From positions 1-64,000 of the forward strand of contig JADZGB010000040.1 in the NCBI GenBank assembly GCA_020854105.1: a stretch of 64,000 nucleotides of DNA, read 5' to 3'. Shown piece after piece: positions 51,388-63,455 of the stretch. The notes below the pieces were generated by a model. It did no database searches. It saw nothing but the letters and a program-made list of their open reading frames with translations, and was not told the origin of the DNA. The stretch is from Burkholderiales bacterium. Lineage in GTDB: Bacteria > Pseudomonadota > Gammaproteobacteria > Burkholderiales > SHXO01. The first letter of the stretch is position 1. The number at the start of each line of letters is the position of its first letter. The position numbers were made by a program, and so were the translations under genes.

Positions 51388-51415
51388 TTGCGTCGCACCT
51401 CGCGCGCAGTAGAAT
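51388..51415 (+). promoter_or_regulatory. Sigma-70 promoter of dnaB
   Basis: TTGCGT, a 16-bp spacer and TAGAAT. Its predicted start site is downstream of the track ORF start at 51414, which supports the later ATG at 51480. Confidence 0.5.
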
Positions 51416-51479
51416 GCCTCGTCTTCACCCGGGACGCGACCGTCCGGTCCGTCCGCTTTCCGGCTCATCCACCCGGCGC

Positions 51480-53903
51480 ATGGCAATTTCGACCACTGAC
51501 ATCGAAGTCGAGTCCATCAAGGTACCGCCGCATTCGGTCGAGGCGGAGCAGTCCGTGCTCGGCGGCCTGCTGCTCGACAACAGCGCCTGGGATCGCGTCG
51601 CCGACATGATCGCAGAGGGCGATTTCTATCGCGCCGATCATCGCCAGATCTATCGCCACATCGTCAAGCTGATCGGGGCCGGCCGGCCGGCCGACGTGGT
51701 GACCGTGGCAGAGAGCCTGGACAGCACCAAGGATCTGGCGGCAGTGGGCGGGCTCGCCTATCTCACCGCGCTCGCCGCCGGCACGCCCTCGGCCACCAAC
51801 ATCCGCCGCTATGCCGAGATCGTGCGTGAACGCGCGATCCTGCGCCAGCTCGCCGCCGTCGCCACCGAGATCTCGGACAGCGCGTACAGTCCCATGGGGC
51901 GCGACGCGAGCCAGATCCTCGACGAGGCCGAATCCAGGGTCTTCGAGATCGCCGAGCAGGGCGCGCGCGGAAGCAAGGGCTTCCAGGACATGCCGTATCT
52001 GCTCACCCAGGTGGTCGAGCGCATCGACATGCTCTACAACCGCGGCGGCAACAACGACGTGACCGGCGTGCCGACGGGCTACATCGATCTCGACCGCATG
52101 ACATCGGGATTGCAGCCGGGGGAGCTGGTGATCGTGGCCGGAAGACCGTCGATGGGGAAGGCTCAGCCGCTCGACGCCAAGGTGAAGACCGTCGATGGCT
52201 GGAAGACGATGGGGGATCTGCGCTTCGGGGACGAGCTTGCGTCGATCGATGGCAAGCGTTCCCTGGTCAGCGGCGTGTTTCCGCAGGGTCGCCGGCAGGT
52301 CTACCGTGTCACTTTCTCGGACGGCCGCAGCACGAGATGCTGTGCCGAGCATCTGTGGAAGGTCCATTACCGGGAGTGGGAGGCGCCGAGGACGCTCGGC
52401 ACTGCTCGCCTGATCGAGATGCTCCAACGCCAGCGCTACAGGCACCGGCTGTGGGTCGATGCGGTGAGCGGGGACTTCGGCAGCCGCGAAGAACTGCCGG
52501 TTGCACCGTGGCTGTTGGGGGCATTGCTCGGGGATGGGCACCTGGACGGGGGCTCCGTCATGTTCTCGACCAGCGAGAACGAGATGCTGGCGCGGCTGGA
52601 GTGTGCGGCTGGTCCGGCTTATGCCGTGCGTGCGGCTGGCGGCTACGACTATCGGATCGCCCAACGTGGCGGGGCGCATCGGACCGGCATCCGGGGCGTG
52701 AGCCCCAACGGCATGAAGGAGGCCTTGCGCGGCCTCGGGCTATGGGGAGTGCGCAGCGAGGAGAAGTTCGTGCCCGCGCCCTATCTCCTGGCTTCGCGCG
52801 AGGTGCGGCTCGAGGTGCTGCGTGGATTGTTGGACACGGATGGCTGGGTGGAGCGGTGGGGCAGCATCCGTTTTTGCTCGATCAGCGAGCGACTCGCGCG
52901 CGATGTGGTGGCGTTGGTGCGCTCCCTGGGAGGATGGGCAACGATACGCAGCAGGCGGAGCACTTACACGTACAACGGTGAACGTCGCGAAGGGCGGACC
53001 GCCTACGTCTGCAATCTGCATCACGACGATCCGCGGTCGCTGTTCCATCTCTCATCCGAGCGGGCGCGTCTTCCCGAGCGACCGGAGCGCGCATGGCGAC
53101 CGGTAATCGTCTCCATCGAACCCGATGGCGAAGCCGATACGCAGTGCATTGCCGTCACCCATCCGAGCCGCCTCTATGTCACCGACGACTACGTGGTGAC
53201 GCACAACACCTCGCTCGCCATGAACATCGCCGAGCACGTCGCGCTCGAGGCGAAGCTGCCGGTGGGCGTGTTCTCGATGGAAATGGCGGGCACGCAGCTG
53301 GTGCTGCGCATGCTCGGCTCGGTGGGCAAGCTCGATCAGCACAAGCTGCGCACCGGGCGCCTGCACGACGAAGATTGGAAGCGCCTCACCGACGCGGTCG
53401 GACGCCTGAACGACGCCAACCTCCACGTTGACGAGACGCCCGCCCTCAATCCGCTCGAACTGCGTGCGCGGGCGCGACGCCTGCACCGGCAGTACAAGGG
53501 ACTCGGGCTGGTGGTGGTGGACTATCTGCAGCTGATGTCCTCGGCCTCGCAGGGCGAGAATCGCGCCACGGAGATCTCGGAGATCTCGCGCTCGCTCAAG
53601 AGCCTCGCCAAGGAACTCCACTGCCCGGTGATCGCGCTGTCGCAGCTCAACCGCAGCCTCGAACAGCGCCCGAACAAGCGGCCGGTGATGTCTGATCTGC
53701 GCGAATCCGGAGCGATCGAACAGGATGCAGACCTGATCCTGTTCATCTATCGCGACGAGGTGTACAACCCGGAGAGCCCGGACAAGGGCATCGCCGAGGT
53801 GATCATCGGCAAGCAGCGCAACGGTCCCATCGGCACCGTGCAACTCGCCTTCCTCGGCGAGTACACGCGCTTCGAGAACCTCGCCAACCCGAATCGCTAT
53901 TGA
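51480..53903 (+). CDS. dnaB: Replicative DNA helicase DnaB, intein-containing precursor
   Basis: An 807-codon precursor that should mature to a 458-residue hexameric helicase, about the usual size. The N-terminal domain (PPHSVEAEQSVLGGLLLDN) and linker precede the RecA-like motor with P-loop GRPSMGK and TSLAMN, which are separated here by an intein. The rest has GVFSMEM, VVVDYLQLM (Walker B), ALSQLNRSLEQRPNKRPVMSDLRESGAIEQDAD, and the C-terminal IGKQRNGPIGTV arginine-finger region. Splicing is needed to rebuild the ATP-binding site. The ATG at 51480 matches the family N-terminus and the promoter position. Confidence 0.96.
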   Translation: MAISTTDIEVESIKVPPHSVEAEQSVLGGLLLDNSAWDRVADMIAEGDFYRADHRQIYRHIVKLIGAGRPADVVTVAESLDSTKDLAAVGGLAYLTALAAGTPSATNIRRYAEIVRERAILRQLAAVATEISDSAYSPMGRDASQILDEAESRVFEIAEQGARGSKGFQDMPYLLTQVVERIDMLYNRGGNNDVTGVPTGYIDLDRMTSGLQPGELVIVAGRPSMGKAQPLDAKVKTVDGWKTMGDLRFGDELASIDGKRSLVSGVFPQGRRQVYRVTFSDGRSTRCCAEHLWKVHYREWEAPRTLGTARLIEMLQRQRYRHRLWVDAVSGDFGSREELPVAPWLLGALLGDGHLDGGSVMFSTSENEMLARLECAAGPAYAVRAAGGYDYRIAQRGGAHRTGIRGVSPNGMKEALRGLGLWGVRSEEKFVPAPYLLASREVRLEVLRGLLDTDGWVERWGSIRFCSISERLARDVVALVRSLGGWATIRSRRSTYTYNGERREGRTAYVCNLHHDDPRSLFHLSSERARLPERPERAWRPVIVSIEPDGEADTQCIAVTHPSRLYVTDDYVVTHNTSLAMNIAEHVALEAKLPVGVFSMEMAGTQLVLRMLGSVGKLDQHKLRTGRLHDEDWKRLTDAVGRLNDANLHVDETPALNPLELRARARRLHRQYKGLGLVVVDYLQLMSSASQGENRATEISEISRSLKSLAKELHCPVIALSQLNRSLEQRPNKRPVMSDLRESGAIEQDADLILFIYRDEVYNPESPDKGIAEVIIGKQRNGPIGTVQLAFLGEYTRFENLANPNRY
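52161..53207 (+). other. Class 3 intein with LAGLIDADG homing endonuclease in DnaB
   Basis: A 349-residue intein inserted after the Walker A lysine (SMGK|AQPLDAKV ... YVVTHN|TSLAM). It begins with Ala, not Cys or Ser, and carries the class 3 WCT signature: W66 in CCAEHLWKV (block B), C329 in TQCIAV (block F) and T347 in VTHN (block G), with the terminal Asn and a +1 Thr. The endonuclease half has both LAGLIDADG motifs with their acidic residues (LLGALLGDGHL and LRGLLDTDGWV), so homing activity is likely retained. Removing it leaves a normal-length DnaB in frame. Confidence 0.95.
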
Positions 53904-56192: not shown

Positions 56193-56221
56193 TTGACAAG
56201 ATAAATGAGAGTGCTTATCGT
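56193..56221 (+). promoter_or_regulatory. Promoter with overlapping Fur-type box before the TonB receptor
   Basis: A consensus TTGACA, a 17-bp spacer and TATCGT. The spacer and -10 are covered by GATAAATGAGAGTGCTTATC (56200-56219), a GATAA...TTATC palindrome resembling the Fur operator. Iron-replete repression of the whole operon is likely. Confidence 0.7.
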
Positions 56222-56315
56222 TTACCCATAAGTTCCAGCCAGCAAGTACCTGCCCAGCAATCGGCGGGTGGTAGCCAGCCATGTCGTCAACATTGTCGAA
56301 CCGAGGCTACCACCC

Positions 56316-58583
56316 GTGTCATACGTTCGTTTCCCCTTGGCCAGCCCTTTGCGCCTGTCGATCTGCATCGGTCTGGCGCTTTGCACCCCGAACGCGATCC
56401 TGCATGCGCAGGAAGTCGCGCAGGTCCGGGCGGTCGTAGTCACCGCCACGCGTACCGAGGCCGAGGCCGAGAAGGTGCCGGCGACGGTGACCAGCATCAC
56501 GCGCGAGGAGCTGGGACTGCGGCTGCCGGCCGACCTGTCGGAACTGTTCGAGGATGAGCCGGACGTGGCTGTCGGCCGCGACGCCCGGCGCTTTGGTGCG
56601 TCGCAACCGAACATCCGGGGCATCGAAGACAACCGCGTGGTGCAGATGGTCGACGGGGTGCGCCTGCCGAACTTCTACAACGGCGGTGGGCCCACCAATT
56701 TCACCATGAACGCCCCGCTGGGGCCCTCACTGGAGTTCCTGCGGCGCACGGAAATCCTCAGGGGACCGGCCTCCAGTCTCTACGGATCGGATGCGATCGG
56801 CGGTGTGGTGGGCTATCTCACGCTCGATCCCGGCGACCTGCTGCAGCCCGGGCGAAATGCGGGCGTGCGCGCGCGTCTCGGCTACAACACGGCCAACGCC
56901 GGTATCACCGGTGCGCTGCTCGGTGCCGGCGGCAGTGACAACGTGCGGCTGCTGTTCGGCTATTCGCACACCGAGGCCTCCGAGTTCGACAACAAGGGCG
57001 ACGCGGGCGGCACATCCTCCGTTCGCACCCGGCCCAATCCCGAGGACGTGCGCGACCGCGGCGTGATCGCGAAGGCGCTGCTAACGCCTTCTGCCCATCA
57101 TCGGATCGCGCTGACGATCGAGGGTCGCGAACGCGACGCGTCAATCGACGTATTGCGCCTGTCCTCATCGCTTCCGAAGGTCACCGCCACCACGGGCGAG
57201 GACGACGTCGAGCGCGTGCGCGGCACGCTGGAATGGCAGCATACGCCGCAGGGTGGCTGGTACGACCGCATGACTGCCCGTGCCTACCGGCAGACCAGCG
57301 AGACGCGCAACTTCAACGTGCAGACGCGCACCAACAGTTCAGCGACGTGCTCGGCTGCGGCGGGTGCGGGCAACGACTGCCGCATCGACCAGTACTTCTC
57401 CTTCGACCAAACGCTGACCGGCGGCAGCCTGCAACTGGAGAAGATGCTGGGCGAGCACCACGATGTCACCGGCGGCATCGACCTGTGGCGGCTGGAGACC
57501 GAAGAATCCCGCGATGCCAACGTGTTCAACCTGACCACGGGCACCACCAGCAAGACGCTGGCCGGCGACGTGTTCCCCTTGCGCGATTTCGCCCCTGGCT
57601 ACACCGACACGCTCGGGCTGTTCATCCAGGACGAGATCGTCGACCTGGCAGGCGGCAAGCTCACGGTGACGCCTGGCTTGCGCTTCGACGTGCGACGGCT
57701 CAGGCCGGAATCGGACGCGCTGTCGAACGCGGTGCTGGCGGCGATCGGCAAGCAGGCCGTGTCGCGGACCAACAACGCGCTGTCGCCCAAGCTGGGCGTC
57801 CTGTGGGCGTTCACGCCAACGTTCGCCGGCTACGGGCAGATCGTGCGCGGATTCCGGGCGCCCAACTACGAAGAGGTGAACGGGCATTTCCGCAACACCG
57901 CACAGAGCTACGCCATCAGCCCCAATCCGGACCTCGATCCGGAAACCAGCACCGGGGTGGAGCTGGGACTGCGGCTGACGCGCGAACGGCTGCGCGCGCA
58001 GATCGCCGCCTATGACAACCGCTACCGCAACTTCATCGACAGCGTGCGGCTGAACTGCCCCGACGATCCCAACTGCGTGAGCGGCATCGGTACCACCTTC
58101 ATGTCGGTCAACCTGACCAAGGTGCGCATCTACGGCGTGGAGGCACGCTTTGCCTGGGAGTGGGCGCCGGGCTGGCGTCTGGACGGCGCCATCGCCTATG
58201 CCCATGGCGAGGACGAGAGCGCGGACCAGCCGCTGGATACCATCGAACCGACCCGCGCCTCGCTGGCACTGGTCCGCGATGCCGGTACCTGGGGCGGGGA
58301 GGCACGGCTGCGAGCGGCGGCAGGCGTCCGGCGCGTCAACGATTTCGACGGCACCACCTATTCGCCCTGGTTCCGTCCGCCGAGCTACGAGGTGCTGGAC
58401 CTGGCCGCGTGGGTCGCGCCGATCAAGAACATGCGCCTGTCGCTGGCGGTGAACAACGTGTTCGACTCCAAGTACTGGCTGTGGAGCGACATCCGCCTTG
58501 CCGACGCGCGCAATCCGCTCGGCGTGGACTTCTACTCGCAGCCGGGACGCAACATCTCCGCTTGGCTCGAGTACCTGTTCTGA
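56316..58583 (+). CDS. TonB-dependent outer-membrane receptor, hemoglobin/heme type (HmuR-like)
   Basis: An outer-membrane gated channel of about 755 residues. The signal peptide (LSICIGLALCTPNAILHAQ) is followed by a TonB-box-like VVVTATRTEAEAEKVPATV. The plug domain has PNIRGIEDNRVVQMVDGVRLPNFYNGG and FLRRTEILRGPASSLYGSDAIGGVVGY. The 22-strand barrel includes the hemoglobin-receptor-type YGQIVRGFRAPNYEEVNGHF and NPDLDPETSTGVELGL segments, and ends AWLEYLF with terminal Phe. Similarity of the plug and barrel motifs to the hemoglobin/transferrin group suggests heme uptake. GTG 56316 best fits the signal peptide; GTG 56268 is an alternative. Confidence 0.88.
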   Translation: MSYVRFPLASPLRLSICIGLALCTPNAILHAQEVAQVRAVVVTATRTEAEAEKVPATVTSITREELGLRLPADLSELFEDEPDVAVGRDARRFGASQPNIRGIEDNRVVQMVDGVRLPNFYNGGGPTNFTMNAPLGPSLEFLRRTEILRGPASSLYGSDAIGGVVGYLTLDPGDLLQPGRNAGVRARLGYNTANAGITGALLGAGGSDNVRLLFGYSHTEASEFDNKGDAGGTSSVRTRPNPEDVRDRGVIAKALLTPSAHHRIALTIEGRERDASIDVLRLSSSLPKVTATTGEDDVERVRGTLEWQHTPQGGWYDRMTARAYRQTSETRNFNVQTRTNSSATCSAAAGAGNDCRIDQYFSFDQTLTGGSLQLEKMLGEHHDVTGGIDLWRLETEESRDANVFNLTTGTTSKTLAGDVFPLRDFAPGYTDTLGLFIQDEIVDLAGGKLTVTPGLRFDVRRLRPESDALSNAVLAAIGKQAVSRTNNALSPKLGVLWAFTPTFAGYGQIVRGFRAPNYEEVNGHFRNTAQSYAISPNPDLDPETSTGVELGLRLTRERLRAQIAAYDNRYRNFIDSVRLNCPDDPNCVSGIGTTFMSVNLTKVRIYGVEARFAWEWAPGWRLDGAIAYAHGEDESADQPLDTIEPTRASLALVRDAGTWGGEARLRAAAGVRRVNDFDGTTYSPWFRPPSYEVLDLAAWVAPIKNMRLSLAVNNVFDSKYWLWSDIRLADARNPLGVDFYSQPGRNISAWLEYLF

Positions 58584-58588
58584 TCCGC

Positions 58589-61500
58589 ATGCGACCATCA
58601 TTCCCGATCCGGAAAGACATGCGCAGCGCCGCCCTCCGGGCAGTGCTGCCCAGCGGTTTGCGCCATGGTCTGGCAGAGGGTCTGTCCCGGGGGCTGCGCG
58701 GCACCCTGGCCGCGTTCGTCGCCCTGGTCCTCACGCTGGTCGCGCCCTGTACGCAGGCGCGCGACCTGCTCGTGCTCACCGCACCGCCGGTGCTGGCAGG
58801 CAAGTTCCACATTCTCGATGGCATCGCCAAGGGGCACGGCTGGCGCGTGCGCCATGTTTTCGCCGACCGCCTTTCCGGGGAGGAAGGCCCGCGCGTGTTC
58901 GAGGGCACCGACCTGGTGCTGCTCGACATTCCCTACGATCCGGTGGTCGAGGCCGTCGAGCGCAAGGTCGGCCCGGCATTGCGGCAGGCACGCGTGCCCT
59001 GGCTGGAGGTTCAGGCCGAACGCCACCAGGCCAGCGGCCTGGACGATGTACATGCGCAGGAACTATGGCGCTACTACGCCAACGGCGGCAAGCGCAACTT
59101 CGACAACTTCTTCCGCTATCTCGACGCGCGCGTGTTCGGGCAAACCGACGCCGCGGTCGCGGCGCCGGTGTTGTTTCCCGAAAGCGGCGTCTACCACCCG
59201 GACTACGACGGCGCGGTGTTCGGATCGGTGGCGGACTACTTCGCCTGGAAAGGCGTCGACGTGCAGGCGCGGCCGCCGGTGGTCGCGTTCGCCTTGCATC
59301 AGCACTACATCTCCTCGAACCTCACGCGTTTCATCGACGACACCATCCGTGCGATCGAGGCGCGCGGCGCGATCCCGCTGGCGTTCTACGTGCCGATGGA
59401 GGACGAGCGGGCGTTCGACAGCCTGCTGATGGTCGATGGCAAGCCGATGGCCGATGTCCTGATCAACAGCCAGATCATGCTGCGCTCGGACCTTCGCAAG
59501 GTCGAGTTCGAGCGTCTGGGCATCCCGGTGATCCAGGCCATGCCCTATCGCCGCGGCGACGTGGACGAATGGATGAAGGACGTCGCCGGGGTGCACGTGA
59601 TGGATGTGCCGTTCTATCTGGCGCAGTCGGAATTCGCCGGCGTGGTCGATGCGATGACCGCCGCCGCCACGCGCAAGCTCGACGGGCAGATCGTGTCGAT
59701 TCCCGGCCAGGTGGACGCGGTGGTGGCGAAGGCGCTGAACCTGGTCGCGCTGCAGCGCACGCGCAACCCCGACAAGCGCGTGGCGCTATTCTTCTGGAAC
59801 TATCCCGCCGGCGCGACCAATCTCGGCGCCTCCTATCTCAACGTGCCGCGCAGCCTGTCCGGCATGCTCGGCGCGATGCACGGCGCCGGCTACCAGGTTC
59901 AGCCGACGCCGGCCGACGCGCTGATCCCGCAGCTGCAGCGGCTGCTGCGGCCGTACTACCGCGACGGTGAACTGCAACGGCTGCTGGACGACGGGCTGGC
60001 CGCGACCTTGCCGCTCGCCCGCTACCGGGCCTGGTATGACCGCTTGCCCGCCGAGGTGCGCGATCGCATCGGCGCGCGCTGGGGCGAGCCGGAGAAATCC
60101 GAGATGGTGATGACGATCGGCGGCGAGCCGCAGTTCGTCATTCCGCGGCTGGCGCTCGGTCAGCTGGTGGCGATGCCCCAGCCGCCGCGCGGCGAGCGCC
60201 GAGACGACAGGGAGAAGGCGCTGTACCACGACACCTCGGTGCCGGTGAACCACTTCTACCTGGCGGTGTACCTGTGGGCACGCGAGGCGTTCGGCACGCA
60301 CGCGCTGGTACATCTCGGCACCCACGGCACGCAGGAGTGGATGCCCGGGAAGGAGCGCGGACTGTGGGTGGCCGACGACGCACTGCTGCCGGTCGCCGAC
60401 GTGCCGGTGATCTATCCCTACATCGTCGACGACGTGGGCGAGGCGGTGCAGGCCAAGCGCCGCGGCCGCGCGCTGACCCTGAGCCACCAGACCGCGCCGT
60501 TCGCGCCGGCCGGGCTGCACAACGAGCTCAACGGCCTGCACGCACTGGTGCACGAGTGGCAGAGCCTGACCGAGGGTCCGGTGCGCGACAAGACCCGCGA
60601 CCAGATCCTGGTGCAGGCACGCGAGCTCAACTTCGAGAAGGATCTGGGCGTGAGCGAAGCGGCGGCCCGGCGCGAGTTTCCGCCCTTCCTGCAGCGCCTG
60701 CACGACTGGCTGCACGAACTGGCGCTGGCCAATCAGCCGCAGGGCATGCATACCCTCGGTACGACGCAGGAGGACCGCTTCCGCATCGGCACCCTGCTGC
60801 AGATGCTCGGCCGCGAGTTCGTCGCGCTGGTCGATCCGGATCCTGACGAAGCCTTCGTCGACGACTATCGCAAGTTCACCGACTCCACGGCCTACCGCTT
60901 CCTGGCACGTCATCTGAGCGGCAACGAGGCGCTGCCGGCCGGCGCCGACGCGCGTCTGGGACCCATGCTGGAGCAGGCGCGCGTGCACTACGCCGCCCTG
61001 GATGCATCACCGGAGATGCGCGGGCTGCTGCTGGCGCTGGATGGCCGCCACGTCACGTCGGGCTATGGCGGTGACCCGATCCGCAACCCGGATTCGCTGC
61101 CGACCGGGCGCAACCTGTACGGGTTCGACCCGTCGCGGGTGCCGACCAAGGCGGCGTACGAGGCCGGACGCGAGGCGCTCGACAAGCTGATCGCCGCGCA
61201 TCGCGCCAGGCACGGCGCGCCGCCCACCAAGCTCGCCTTCACCCTGTGGTCGGTGGAGACCATGCGCCATTTCGGCGTGCTGGAGGCGCAGGCCCTGTAC
61301 GCGATGGGCGTGCGACCGAAGTGGAACCCCGGCGGGCAGGTGACCGGCGTCGAACTGATCCCGCGCGAGGAACTCGGGCGTTCGCGCATCGACGTGGTGC
61401 TCTCGGCCACCGGCCTGTATCGCGACCACTTTCCCAACGCGATCAAGCAGCTCGCCGACGCCGCCGTGCTCGCCGGCAAGGCGGAGGAAACCGACAACGC

Positions 61501-62647
61501 GGTGCGCGCCAGCACGGTGGCGCTGGCTGCGCGGCTCGAAGCTGCCGGCATCGAACCCGAGCGCGCGCGCGGACTCGCCACCACGCGCGTGTTCTCGAAC
61601 GAGTCCGGCGTATACGGCTCGGGCATCGAGGATGCCATCATGGCGTCGCAGACCTGGGAGAAGGAAGACAAGATCGCGCAGATGTACCTGAGCCGCATGC
61701 AGTACGCCTACGGCGCCGACATGCAGAGCTGGGGCACGCGGCTGCCCGAGGTGAACCTGTACGCGGAGAACCTCAAGGGCGTGCAGGGTGCGGTGCTGGC
61801 GCGCACCTCCAATCTCTACGGCATGCTGACTACCGACGACCCGTTCCAGTACCTGGGCGGAGTGTCGCTGGCGGTGCGTCACCTGACGGGAAAGAGCCCG
61901 GAGCTGTACATCTCGAACCTGCGCGAGAGCGACAATCCCAAGGCGGAGACCGCTGCGCAGTTCCTGGCCCGGGAGCTGCGCACGCGCCAGTTCCACCCCG
62001 GCTGGATCGAAGCCCTGCAGCGCGAAGGCTACTCGGGCGTCAACGAGATGCTCGACTCGATCAACAACTTCTGGGGCTGGCAGGTGACGGCACCCGACGT
62101 GGTGCGGGCCGACCAGTGGCAGGAGTTCGCCGACGTCTACGTCCGGGACAAGTACCAGCTGGGCCTGAAGGACTGGTTCGAGCGCAACAACCCGGCGGCC
62201 GCTGCGCAGATGATCGAGCGCATGCTCGAGGCGGTGCGCAAGGACTACTGGCAGGCGGATCCGGCTACCGTGCGCGAACTGGCGCAGCGCTACCGTGAGC
62301 TGGCCGCCCGTTTCGACGTGCGCACCGACAATGCGCGCTTCGAGCAGTTCGTCGCGCAGGCGGCCGGCTTCGGACTGGCCGCGCCGCAGACGCCTGCACC
62401 GCAGCCCAGTGCGCAGCCCGCTGCGGCCGGGGCCGCTGCCGAGCCGGCCCTGCCGCCGCCGCCCCCGCCGCCGGTGCAGGGCCTGAAGCTCACGCAGGTC
62501 GCGCAGCCGGTGATTGCACTGGTCGATGCCCTGCAGCGCGGCCTCGCGCTGGCTCTCCTGTTCATCGTGGTGGTGTTCGGCGGCCTCGCCGAGGCGCGCC
62601 GCGGTCCCCTGTTGCAGTTTCATCCAAGTCAAGGAAGATCGGTGTGA
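58589..62647 (+). CDS. Exported, membrane-tethered CobN-like chelatase (HmuS-like)
   Basis: A protein of about 1,350 residues homologous to the large CobN/BchH chelatase subunit. Landmarks are HGTQEWMPGKERGLW, IVDDVGEAVQAKRRG, GLHNELNGLHALVHEW, SNESGVYGSGIEDAIMASQTW and GTTQEDRFRIGTLLQMLG. Unlike cytosolic CobN, it has an N-terminal export signal (about residues 38-58, AFVALVLTLVAPCTQARD) and ends with a proline-rich stretch, a transmembrane helix (LALALLFIVVVFGGLA) and a short basic tail. No CobS/CobT AAA+ partner is nearby. This matches HmuS of heme-uptake operons, proposed to remove the metal from heme. ATG 58619, with GGAAAG upstream, is an alternative start. Confidence 0.85.
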   Translation: MRPSFPIRKDMRSAALRAVLPSGLRHGLAEGLSRGLRGTLAAFVALVLTLVAPCTQARDLLVLTAPPVLAGKFHILDGIAKGHGWRVRHVFADRLSGEEGPRVFEGTDLVLLDIPYDPVVEAVERKVGPALRQARVPWLEVQAERHQASGLDDVHAQELWRYYANGGKRNFDNFFRYLDARVFGQTDAAVAAPVLFPESGVYHPDYDGAVFGSVADYFAWKGVDVQARPPVVAFALHQHYISSNLTRFIDDTIRAIEARGAIPLAFYVPMEDERAFDSLLMVDGKPMADVLINSQIMLRSDLRKVEFERLGIPVIQAMPYRRGDVDEWMKDVAGVHVMDVPFYLAQSEFAGVVDAMTAAATRKLDGQIVSIPGQVDAVVAKALNLVALQRTRNPDKRVALFFWNYPAGATNLGASYLNVPRSLSGMLGAMHGAGYQVQPTPADALIPQLQRLLRPYYRDGELQRLLDDGLAATLPLARYRAWYDRLPAEVRDRIGARWGEPEKSEMVMTIGGEPQFVIPRLALGQLVAMPQPPRGERRDDREKALYHDTSVPVNHFYLAVYLWAREAFGTHALVHLGTHGTQEWMPGKERGLWVADDALLPVADVPVIYPYIVDDVGEAVQAKRRGRALTLSHQTAPFAPAGLHNELNGLHALVHEWQSLTEGPVRDKTRDQILVQARELNFEKDLGVSEAAARREFPPFLQRLHDWLHELALANQPQGMHTLGTTQEDRFRIGTLLQMLGREFVALVDPDPDEAFVDDYRKFTDSTAYRFLARHLSGNEALPAGADARLGPMLEQARVHYAALDASPEMRGLLLALDGRHVTSGYGGDPIRNPDSLPTGRNLYGFDPSRVPTKAAYEAGREALDKLIAAHRARHGAPPTKLAFTLWSVETMRHFGVLEAQALYAMGVRPKWNPGGQVTGVELIPREELGRSRIDVVLSATGLYRDHFPNAIKQLADAAVLAGKAEETDNAVRASTVALAARLEAAGIEPERARGLATTRVFSNESGVYGSGIEDAIMASQTWEKEDKIAQMYLSRMQYAYGADMQSWGTRLPEVNLYAENLKGVQGAVLARTSNLYGMLTTDDPFQYLGGVSLAVRHLTGKSPELYISNLRESDNPKAETAAQFLARELRTRQFHPGWIEALQREGYSGVNEMLDSINNFWGWQVTAPDVVRADQWQEFADVYVRDKYQLGLKDWFERNNPAAAAQMIERMLEAVRKDYWQADPATVRELAQRYRELAARFDVRTDNARFEQFVAQAAGFGLAAPQTPAPQPSAQPAAAGAAAEPALPPPPPPPVQGLKLTQVAQPVIALVDALQRGLALALLFIVVVFGGLAEARRGPLLQFHPSQGRSV

Positions 62648-63123
62648 GTGTTCTAGAAAGCTTCATGTTCCAGGTCGGACAGCTGTTCCTGATGCCGGTG
62701 CTGGTCGCGGTGTGCGTGTTGTTTCTCTATTCGTTCTGGCTGCTGGGCGGGTTCGCCGTGCAGGCCTGGAAGCGCAGGAGCGGTGGCGGCCGGCCGCTGC
62801 TCGACTACGCCGGCGTCAATCCCGCTGCGGACGAGGATGCCCTCGATCTGCATGCGCACAAGTTGCTGGAGCTGCCGCGCATCGTGGCCCGCATCGCGCC
62901 GATGCTGGGGCTGGTCGCCACCATGATTCCGATGGGCCCTGCCCTGATGGGACTGTCCGACGGCAATCTGGGCAAGGTCTCGCAGAACCTCACCATCGCC
63001 TTCGCCGCGGTGATCCTGGCGCTGATCGCGGCCAGCCTGGCCTACTGGGTGGTCAGCGTGCGCCGGCGCTGGCTGGCCGAGGAAATGCTCGCGGCGCGCG
63101 CGCGGGCCGGGTCGGCACGATGA
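62644..63123 (+). CDS. MotA/TolQ/ExbB-type proton channel protein
   Basis: A 159-residue inner-membrane protein with three helices: LFLMPVLVAVCVLFLYSFWLLGGF, RIVARIAPMLGLVATMIPMGPALMGL, and NLTIAFAAVILALIAASLAYWVV. The second and third match the conserved TolQ/ExbB/MotA core (LGLVATMIPMGPAL is close to the LGLLGTVxGM signature). The GTG start overlaps the stop of the CobN-like gene (GTGA). It would form the stator channel that couples the proton-motive force to the periplasmic partner. Confidence 0.87.
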   Translation: MSVLESFMFQVGQLFLMPVLVAVCVLFLYSFWLLGGFAVQAWKRRSGGGRPLLDYAGVNPAADEDALDLHAHKLLELPRIVARIAPMLGLVATMIPMGPALMGLSDGNLGKVSQNLTIAFAAVILALIAASLAYWVVSVRRRWLAEEMLAARARAGSAR

Positions 63124-63455
63124 GCCTGAAGCTGCTGCACGAGCCGGAGAGCGACGATCCGATCCTGTCGGTGGTCAACCTGATCGACCTGTTCATGGTG
63201 ATCATCGCCGCACTGCTCATCACCGTCGCCCAGAACCCGCTGCTCAATCCGTTCTCCAACCGCGACGTGACGGTGGTCATCGATGCCGGCAAGCCGACCA
63301 TGGAAATGTTGGTCAAGGAAGGCGAGAAGCTGGAGCGCTACAAGGCGAGCGGAAAGATGGGCAGCGGCGACGGTGTGCGCGCCGGCGTGGCCTATCGCCT
63401 GAAAGACGGCAGCATGATCTACGTGCCCGAGGCGGCGCAGCAGCAGGCTAGGTGA
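63120..63455 (+). CDS. DUF2149 protein, ExbD-like
   Basis: A 111-residue protein with one N-terminal helix carrying an acidic residue (ILSVVNLIDLFMVIIAALLITVA), as in ExbD/TolR/MotB where this Asp carries protons. A small periplasmic domain (VTVVIDAGKPTMEMLVKEGEKLERY, GVAYRLKDGSMIYVP) follows. The ATG overlaps the stop of the channel gene (ATGA). DUF2149 proteins accompany the MotA/TolQ/ExbB and CobN-like genes in hmu operons. The stator assignment is inference from topology and context. Confidence 0.82.
   Translation: MSLKLLHEPESDDPILSVVNLIDLFMVIIAALLITVAQNPLLNPFSNRDVTVVIDAGKPTMEMLVKEGEKLERYKASGKMGSGDGVRAGVAYRLKDGSMIYVPEAAQQQAR

Follow-up and report, generated by a model that had tools for sequence, protein, structure and literature searches.

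A TonB-like C-terminal tail in a CobN/HmuS-type chelatase encoded beside ExbB-like and DUF2149 genes

We analyzed a 64,000-nucleotide stretch of a Burkholderiales bacterium genome (GenBank assembly GCA_020854105.1, contig JADZGB010000040.1, positions 1 to 64,000; the whole stretch is referred to here as the window) and focused on an operon that encodes a TonB-dependent receptor, a CobN-like protein, an ExbB-like protein, and a DUF2149 protein, all on the forward strand. The CobN-like protein (58589..62647; 1,352 amino acids) is a CobN/HmuS-type, putatively periplasmic chelatase that carries PF02514 and has HmuS (9d26) as its best Protein Data Bank (PDB) match. It ends in a tail with a conserved juxtamembrane motif and a transmembrane (TM) helix, and tails of this kind were linked to ExbB-like and DUF2149 genes in related loci. 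It is quite possible, though somewhat short of probable, that the operon makes a tetrapyrrole receptor, a tethered dechelatase, and a private ExbB/DUF2149 motor that would act on the enzyme through the tail.

Results

The tail is linked to the motor genes

The initial annotation of this DNA had described an inverted TonB-like tail that was foreign to cytosolic chelatases and that gave an ExbB/ExbD-like motor a route to the enzyme. As described there, the reading frame continues past the CobN/ChlH domain (PF02514, 1,028 bits; residues 160-1227; 59066..62269) into an Ala/Pro-rich flexible linker that starts at residue 1264 (62378..62452), seven consecutive prolines (residues 1289-1295; 62453..62473), a predicted TM helix (approximately residues 1317-1337; Kyte-Doolittle hydropathy, 2.7; 62537..62599), and a basic, presumably cytoplasmic end (62600..62644; C-terminal sequence EARRGPLLQFHPSQGRSV). 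That account overlooked VQGLKLTQV (residues 1296-1304; 62474..62500), a conserved motif located between the prolines and the helix.

A genome scan yielded 48 loci, and a DUF2149 search over 399 genomes of the phylum added to the locus set. A C-terminal helix was called when the hydropathy of 17 residues was at least 1.3. When we checked whether the tail was missing from homologues of the same operon, we found the helix in 63 of the 67 CobN-like proteins encoded beside ExbB-like and DUF2149 genes. Three of the four exceptions (L026, L031, and L039) had broken frames or odd ends, and in the fourth (L048) a hydrophobic stretch was visible although it scored weakly. None of the 50 plain CobN/ChlH controls had a C-terminal helix, which bore out the claim that the tail is foreign to cytosolic chelatases. 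Among the 53 readable CobN-like proteins with no motor genes in the locus, the helix was called in three, and the other 50 are the controls just mentioned. The fetched stretch of one (L015) stops about 3.4 kb past the gene, and close relatives have motor genes 2-6 kb downstream; the other two (L027 and L029) came from assemblies labelled DT_9 and DT_7, which were also the sources of the motor-bearing loci L045 and L022. The nominal Fisher value for co-occurrence of tail and motor genes was 3e-25, a figure that is not readable as a probability given that the loci are related. Both kinds of protein were present in genome G255, in which the CobN-like protein encoded beside the motor genes (L101) was tailed and the plain one (L071) was not.

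The DUF2149 search pointed in the same direction. DUF2149 was found at 18 loci in 17 of the 399 genomes, the window included, and all 18 of these fetched loci had an adjoining CobN-like gene whose product carried a C-terminal helix. The proposed association with an ExbB-type gene was therefore upheld as a strict linkage of the tailed proteins to such a gene.

A juxtamembrane motif and a helix glycine are conserved

As the conserved element of the tail we identified a motif, [VI]xG[QM]x[LM]E(E/K)V, which was located 9-24 residues ahead of the helix in 57 tails (54 unique). Among the 63 unique linkers from loci with the CobN-like, ExbB-like, and DUF2149 trio, 51 had the motif 8-25 residues from the helix, versus 0.48 expected in shuffles, and the spacing was mostly 11-17 residues. 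Three positions (the leading hydrophobic residue, the G, and the L/M) were set by our search pattern; the fair evidence for the motif consists of the shuffle control and the off-pattern positions (Q at 3; E, E/K, and V at 6-8). The helix has a further Gly, outside the search pattern, which was present in 56/56 tails, although glycines may have been brought into register by the alignment itself; it was usually followed by Gln or Glu four residues on. The motif extended to Thermodesulfobacteriota (L140) and Cytophagales (L141).

The proline run fared differently. Runs of at least four prolines were confined to six tailed loci, the window among them, and the run was rejected as a conserved element; the heptaproline stretch is present, as first reported, and is lineage specific. 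The original observation of a tail is thus right and stronger than first claimed, but for another element, the motif rather than the prolines.

Two groups had differing tails. One gammaproteobacterial branch (L104, L108, L109, L112, and L114) had CobN-like and ExbB-like proteins, a strongly divergent DUF2149 protein, and a tail helix with no juxtamembrane motif; these proteins possibly have another substrate or docking mode. Bacteroidales HmuS tails (L138 and L139) had a short G.V[LM]K stretch ahead of the helix, perhaps a decayed motif.

The tail resembles TonB in layout

In Escherichia coli, ExbD dimers take up the D-box of TonB, a proline-flanked stretch with alternating hydrophobic and hydrophilic residues, by strand addition (PMC10907165), and the D-box is located 10-15 residues from the helix in both TonB and TolA (PMC12905483). 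In the TonB proteins of the window's genome, about 10 residues likewise separate the helix from a strand-like stretch flanked by Pro, and prolines come next (e.g., L168, TM...PVMNVRLDPPPEVLPPPPPP). Read from the membrane outward, TonB, TolA, and the chelatase tail share one TM helix, about 10-16 residues, a strand-forming Pro-flanked motif, a Pro-rich linker, and a folded periplasmic working domain. The chain direction is opposite, however, as the chelatase is anchored at its C-terminus, and its working domain is an enzyme, with no TonB_C match in the domain search.

The tail thus has a D-box-like strand motif beside a Pro-rich linker, as a matter of layout only, and the usual distance of the motif from the helix (mostly 11-17 residues) agrees with the 10-15 residues of TonB and TolA. 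The SHLS (SxxxH) motif by which the TonB/TolA helix docks on ExbB was absent from the tail helix, LALALLFIVVVFGGLA, which has no Ser or His; several TonBs of the window's genome have SxxxH in the helix. Because this motif is absent, the tail, as judged from its residues, is TonB-like in layout and is not a member of the TonB/TolA family. With respect to the inverted TonB layout that had been proposed, the order of elements held, while the SHLS motif was missing and the proline run proved dispensable across the family.

The ExbB-like and DUF2149 proteins

The cobN stop and the next gene share 4 bases (GTGA); this gene encodes an ExbB/TolQ-like channel subunit of the HmuU type (62644..63123; PF01618 over the cut-off). 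A second four-base overlap (ATGA) joins it to the gene for the DUF2149 protein (63120..63455; PF09919, 98.5 bits), which is of the HmuV type and has one TM helix. The ExbB-like protein is predicted to be all helical, in keeping with the 3-helix fold of ExbB/TolQ channels, and the first pore Thr of ExbB (Thr93) was kept in 69/69 proteins. For structure modelling, alignment rows came from the window together with the loci fetched from genomes. The model of the ExbB-like protein had a pLDDT of 92, and its top PDB neighbours were all TolQ/ExbB (E, about 0.02; TM-scores, 0.4-0.5). At residue 123, where ExbB has its second pore Thr, 58/69 proteins had Val and Bacteroidota HmuU had Thr.

In the DUF2149 protein, a TM Asp (Asp23) was kept in 65/66 sequences and aligned with the TM Asp of the ExbDs of the same genome. 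The protein did not match PF02472 (ExbD). The window's genome has seven ExbB-type, four ExbD, seven TonB_C, and eleven receptor matches, and it encodes canonical ExbB, ExbD, and TonB proteins elsewhere.

The CobN-like protein is a relative of HmuS

HmuS is a periplasmic CobN-like dechelatase that is anchored to the membrane by N- and C-terminal helices and encoded in an operon with ExbB and DUF2149 proteins (PMC10100974, PMC12583661, PMC13227078; 2023-2026). A membrane-anchored periplasmic CobN-like enzyme in such operons is therefore already known. In the literature that we searched, we did not find the D-box-like motif, its tie to motor genes, or a proposal that the enzyme is what the motor acts on.

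All motor-associated proteins in our tree, HmuS included, formed one clade (0.91), and the window protein grouped with HmuS (0.96) and apart from plain CobN, which places it, by sequence, as a deep sister of HmuS. Like the HmuS proteins of the Bacteroidota hmuYRSTUV operons (Bacteroides thetaiotaomicron and Porphyromonas gingivalis), it has a CobN fold, an N-terminal signal or TM segment, a C-terminal TM helix, and a predicted periplasmic location. Both operons have a TonB-dependent receptor, an ExbB-like protein (HmuU), and a DUF2149 protein (HmuV) as neighbours, and both enzymes have the GTHG that holds the catalytic His538 of HmuS (60317..60328 in the window; kept in 59/60 non-HmuS family members). 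The window operon differs in lacking HmuY and HmuT, an absence seen in 140 species (PMC10100974). The enzymes also differ at one of the two heme ligands (Met79 and His254) that HmuS has where head and neck meet: the window protein has Ile at the His254 position, where 3/60 non-HmuS members have His. The partner of the catalytic histidine, His1209, is Asp in the window and His in 20/60 non-HmuS members. Finally, the window protein has the Pro-rich linker and the V.G..L..V motif, and Bacteroidales HmuS has neither. In another member of the family (L107), the region of the GTHG histidine was lost, and this protein may be inactive or differently active.

The likelier start of the CobN-like reading frame, in our own reading, is the ATG at 58619, which is ten codons in and has a better ribosome site upstream (GGAAAGAC). 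We read residues 38-57 or so, GTLAAFVALVLTLVAPCTQA followed by RD, as a signal sequence; the hydrophobic region and cleavage site (AAFVALVLTLVAPCTQA/RD, cut before RD; 58709..58759) were assigned from sequence and hydropathy. Because of this N-terminal signal sequence and the basic C-terminal end, the body of the protein is most likely periplasmic and its C-terminus cytoplasmic. The signal sequence thus argues for a periplasmic rather than a cytoplasmic body, in agreement with the inverted orientation first suggested; that earlier interpretation, taken as a whole, is partly supported.

The protein also matches NCBIfam NF004644, which is named cobaltochelatase subunit CobN, and this name would fit an ordinary cytosolic CobN of vitamin B12 synthesis with a tail that merely reflects composition. 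We consider that identity very improbable. The signal sequence and C-terminal helix are present, and the protein groups with HmuS rather than with plain CobN. In addition, profile searches of the window's genome (completeness 100) found no CobT, no CbiC, and CobS only below the cut-off, which makes the database name misleading and led us to reject the B12 assignment. The CobN-CobST and ChlH-ChlID class I chelatases share the fold of the large subunit, but they are cytosolic, are driven by ATP through AAA+ partners, and have no tail. Because the NF004644 model spans the periplasmic family, tail included, many database entries that carry its name are probably misnamed.

Whom the motor serves

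In the mechanism that we propose, a heme or metallotetrapyrrole receptor would work beside a secreted CobN/HmuS-type dechelatase whose C-terminus is tethered to the inner membrane, and the ExbB-like and DUF2149 proteins would form a private proton motor of the ExbB/ExbD type. The tail would be the coupling handle, running from the enzyme through a flexible Ala/Pro tether and the strand-forming VQGLKLTQV, about 16 residues off the membrane, to the TM helix and the basic cytoplasmic end. Motif and helix would dock on the motor in the way that TonB uses its D-box to bind ExbD and its helix to bind ExbB, and proton flow would drive the conformational cycle of the enzyme (substrate loading, ring distortion, or product release). 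The motor would take the place of the AAA+ ATPases CobST and ChlID, which power class I chelatases in the cytosol and cannot run in the ATP-free periplasm.

A motor that acts on the chelatase is consistent with the near-complete presence of the tail beside motor genes and its absence from controls, the constant pairing of DUF2149 with CobN-like genes in the sampled genomes, the two kinds of protein in G255, the excess of the motif over shuffles and its spacing, the mirrored order in the TonBs of the window's genome, and the DUF2149 Asp. The lack of CobT, CbiC, and an above-cut-off CobS, the canonical Ton proteins elsewhere in the genome, and the signs for iron and heme also speak for the proposed scheme. 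It is also favoured by Methanosarcina acetivorans, in which profile searches gave genome-level matches to DUF2149, MotA_ExbB, and CobN and no match to a TonB-dependent receptor, TonB_C, or ExbD. As a tentative generalization, possible but less than probable, we suggest a periplasmic chelatase driven by proton motive force through an inverted TonB-like tail with a D-box analogue of its own. The motor would replace the ATPases, the scheme would extend to HmuS, and the process would be independent of outer-membrane transport, as the occurrence of the three families in an archaeon of this kind suggests.

The tail could instead be a plain anchor that holds the dechelatase at the inner membrane, with the ExbB-like and DUF2149 proteins and a TonB energizing the receptor of the operon. 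This is the published view, in that HmuU and HmuV were assigned to the receptor HmuR in the HmuS papers (PMC10100974, PMC12583661), and we regard it as possible, if somewhat doubtful. The archaeal proteins, which occur without a receptor, TonB, or ExbD, do not fit it well, and neither does the finding that DUF2149 was always beside CobN in the 399 genomes (18/18 loci). The window's genome already has complete Ton parts, and in L140 a full TonB-ExbB-ExbD set adjoins the trio. Furthermore, a plain anchor would need neither the motif nor the invariant helix Gly. In an intermediate scheme, which we consider unlikely, docking of the tail on the motor would let the enzyme take substrate straight from the receptor (channelling); import would be powered by the motor, and the tail would serve for placement alone. 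This would account jointly for the receptor linkage, the D-box-like motif, and the four-base cistron overlaps; it leaves unexplained the three proteins in M. acetivorans, which has no outer-membrane receptor.

Several observations weigh against a motor that acts on the enzyme, and the first two of them speak for an anchor. A receptor gene was present in 55/68 trio loci, which is what a motor working for the receptor would predict. Purified HmuS that lacks its TM helices can dechelate heme in vitro when given NADH, in the absence of a motor (PMC12583661), and for that reason the motor is not strictly needed for the chemistry. The motif was absent from three Bacteroidota HmuS proteins (L138, L139, and L143) and from the gammaproteobacterial branch noted above, although Bacteroidales HmuS and this branch keep helix and motor, and the tail helix lacks SxxxH. 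For DUF2149, Foldseek with a weak model (pTM 0.34) and a profile search against the PDB found no ExbD, and the likeness to ExbD appears to be confined to the TM segment. Contact between motor and tail, and force on the enzyme, are themselves proposals.

HmuS-type dechelatases are a recently proven route to heme iron, and the role of the ExbB-like and DUF2149 genes has been assumed in the literature. The motif and helix Gly are inseparable from the motor genes and open a direct way to test whether the motor is for the receptor or for the enzyme. The known jobs of the 5:2 motor family are in flagella, Ton, Tol, gliding, and phage defence. If the motor does serve the enzyme, that family would gain a new job and class I chelatases a new source of energy.

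Receptor, promoter, and likely substrate

The first gene of the operon encodes a TonB-dependent receptor of the heme/hemoglobin type (56268..58583), with TIGR01786 and TIGR01785 over the cut-off and PhuR as its best PDB match (8the; E, 3e-88). At the promoter, which has TTGACA at 56193, we found a candidate Fur-like operator, ATAAATGAGAGTGCTTATCGTTTAC (56201..56225), which is a weak-to-moderate match (13/19) and the best Fur-consensus match of the window. Similar sites preceded the receptor gene in three related loci, L006 (ATAAATGAGAACTATTATC), L036, and L003. Zur control was considered and rejected, as the promoter had no good Zur box. Riboswitch control was likewise rejected, as Rfam gave no match in the window and none in the majority of related loci; cobalamin riboswitches were found in L140 only.

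The PhuR-like receptor and the Fur-like operator are signs for iron and heme, and iron from heme is, by these signs, rather likely to be what the window enzyme yields. That heme is the substrate is uncertain, and this too counts against the proposed scheme, because His254 and His1209 of HmuS are not kept. The metal probably differs among family members, since related operons sit in differing metal contexts: cobalamin riboswitches (L140), hydrogenase maturation genes (L141), NikR (L144), and Zur (PA1922-PA1925). The last of these, in Pseudomonas aeruginosa, was described as a Zur-regulated receptor, CobN-like, ExbB- or ExbD-annotated, and DUF2149 set (PMC4542158, PMC9431628). By those descriptions it has the same four-gene order and families as the window operon, but it is under Zur/zinc control, in contrast to the Fur-like operator and PhuR-like receptor of the window.

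Three related loci had further genes. On a Trichlorobacter plasmid (L140, 2963-12945), two cobalamin riboswitches precede the receptor gene and a separate, complete TonB-ExbB-ExbD set is located directly 3' of the CobN gene. On a Runella plasmid (L141, 3317-11351), genes for a receptor, a membrane protein, and ExbB-like, DUF2149, and CobN proteins lie inside hydrogenase maturation genes (hypABF and hypCDE), a position that suggests nickel. In L021 (11243-13012), the CobN-like gene is separated from the motor genes by another receptor gene and by a gene for a large membrane protein resembling a PepSY-type iron reductase. Apart from the operon, the window contains a DnaB helicase reading frame (51414-53903; 829 amino acids) with an apparent intein in the Walker A loop (GRPSMGK|AQPLDAKV...VTHN|TSLAMN).

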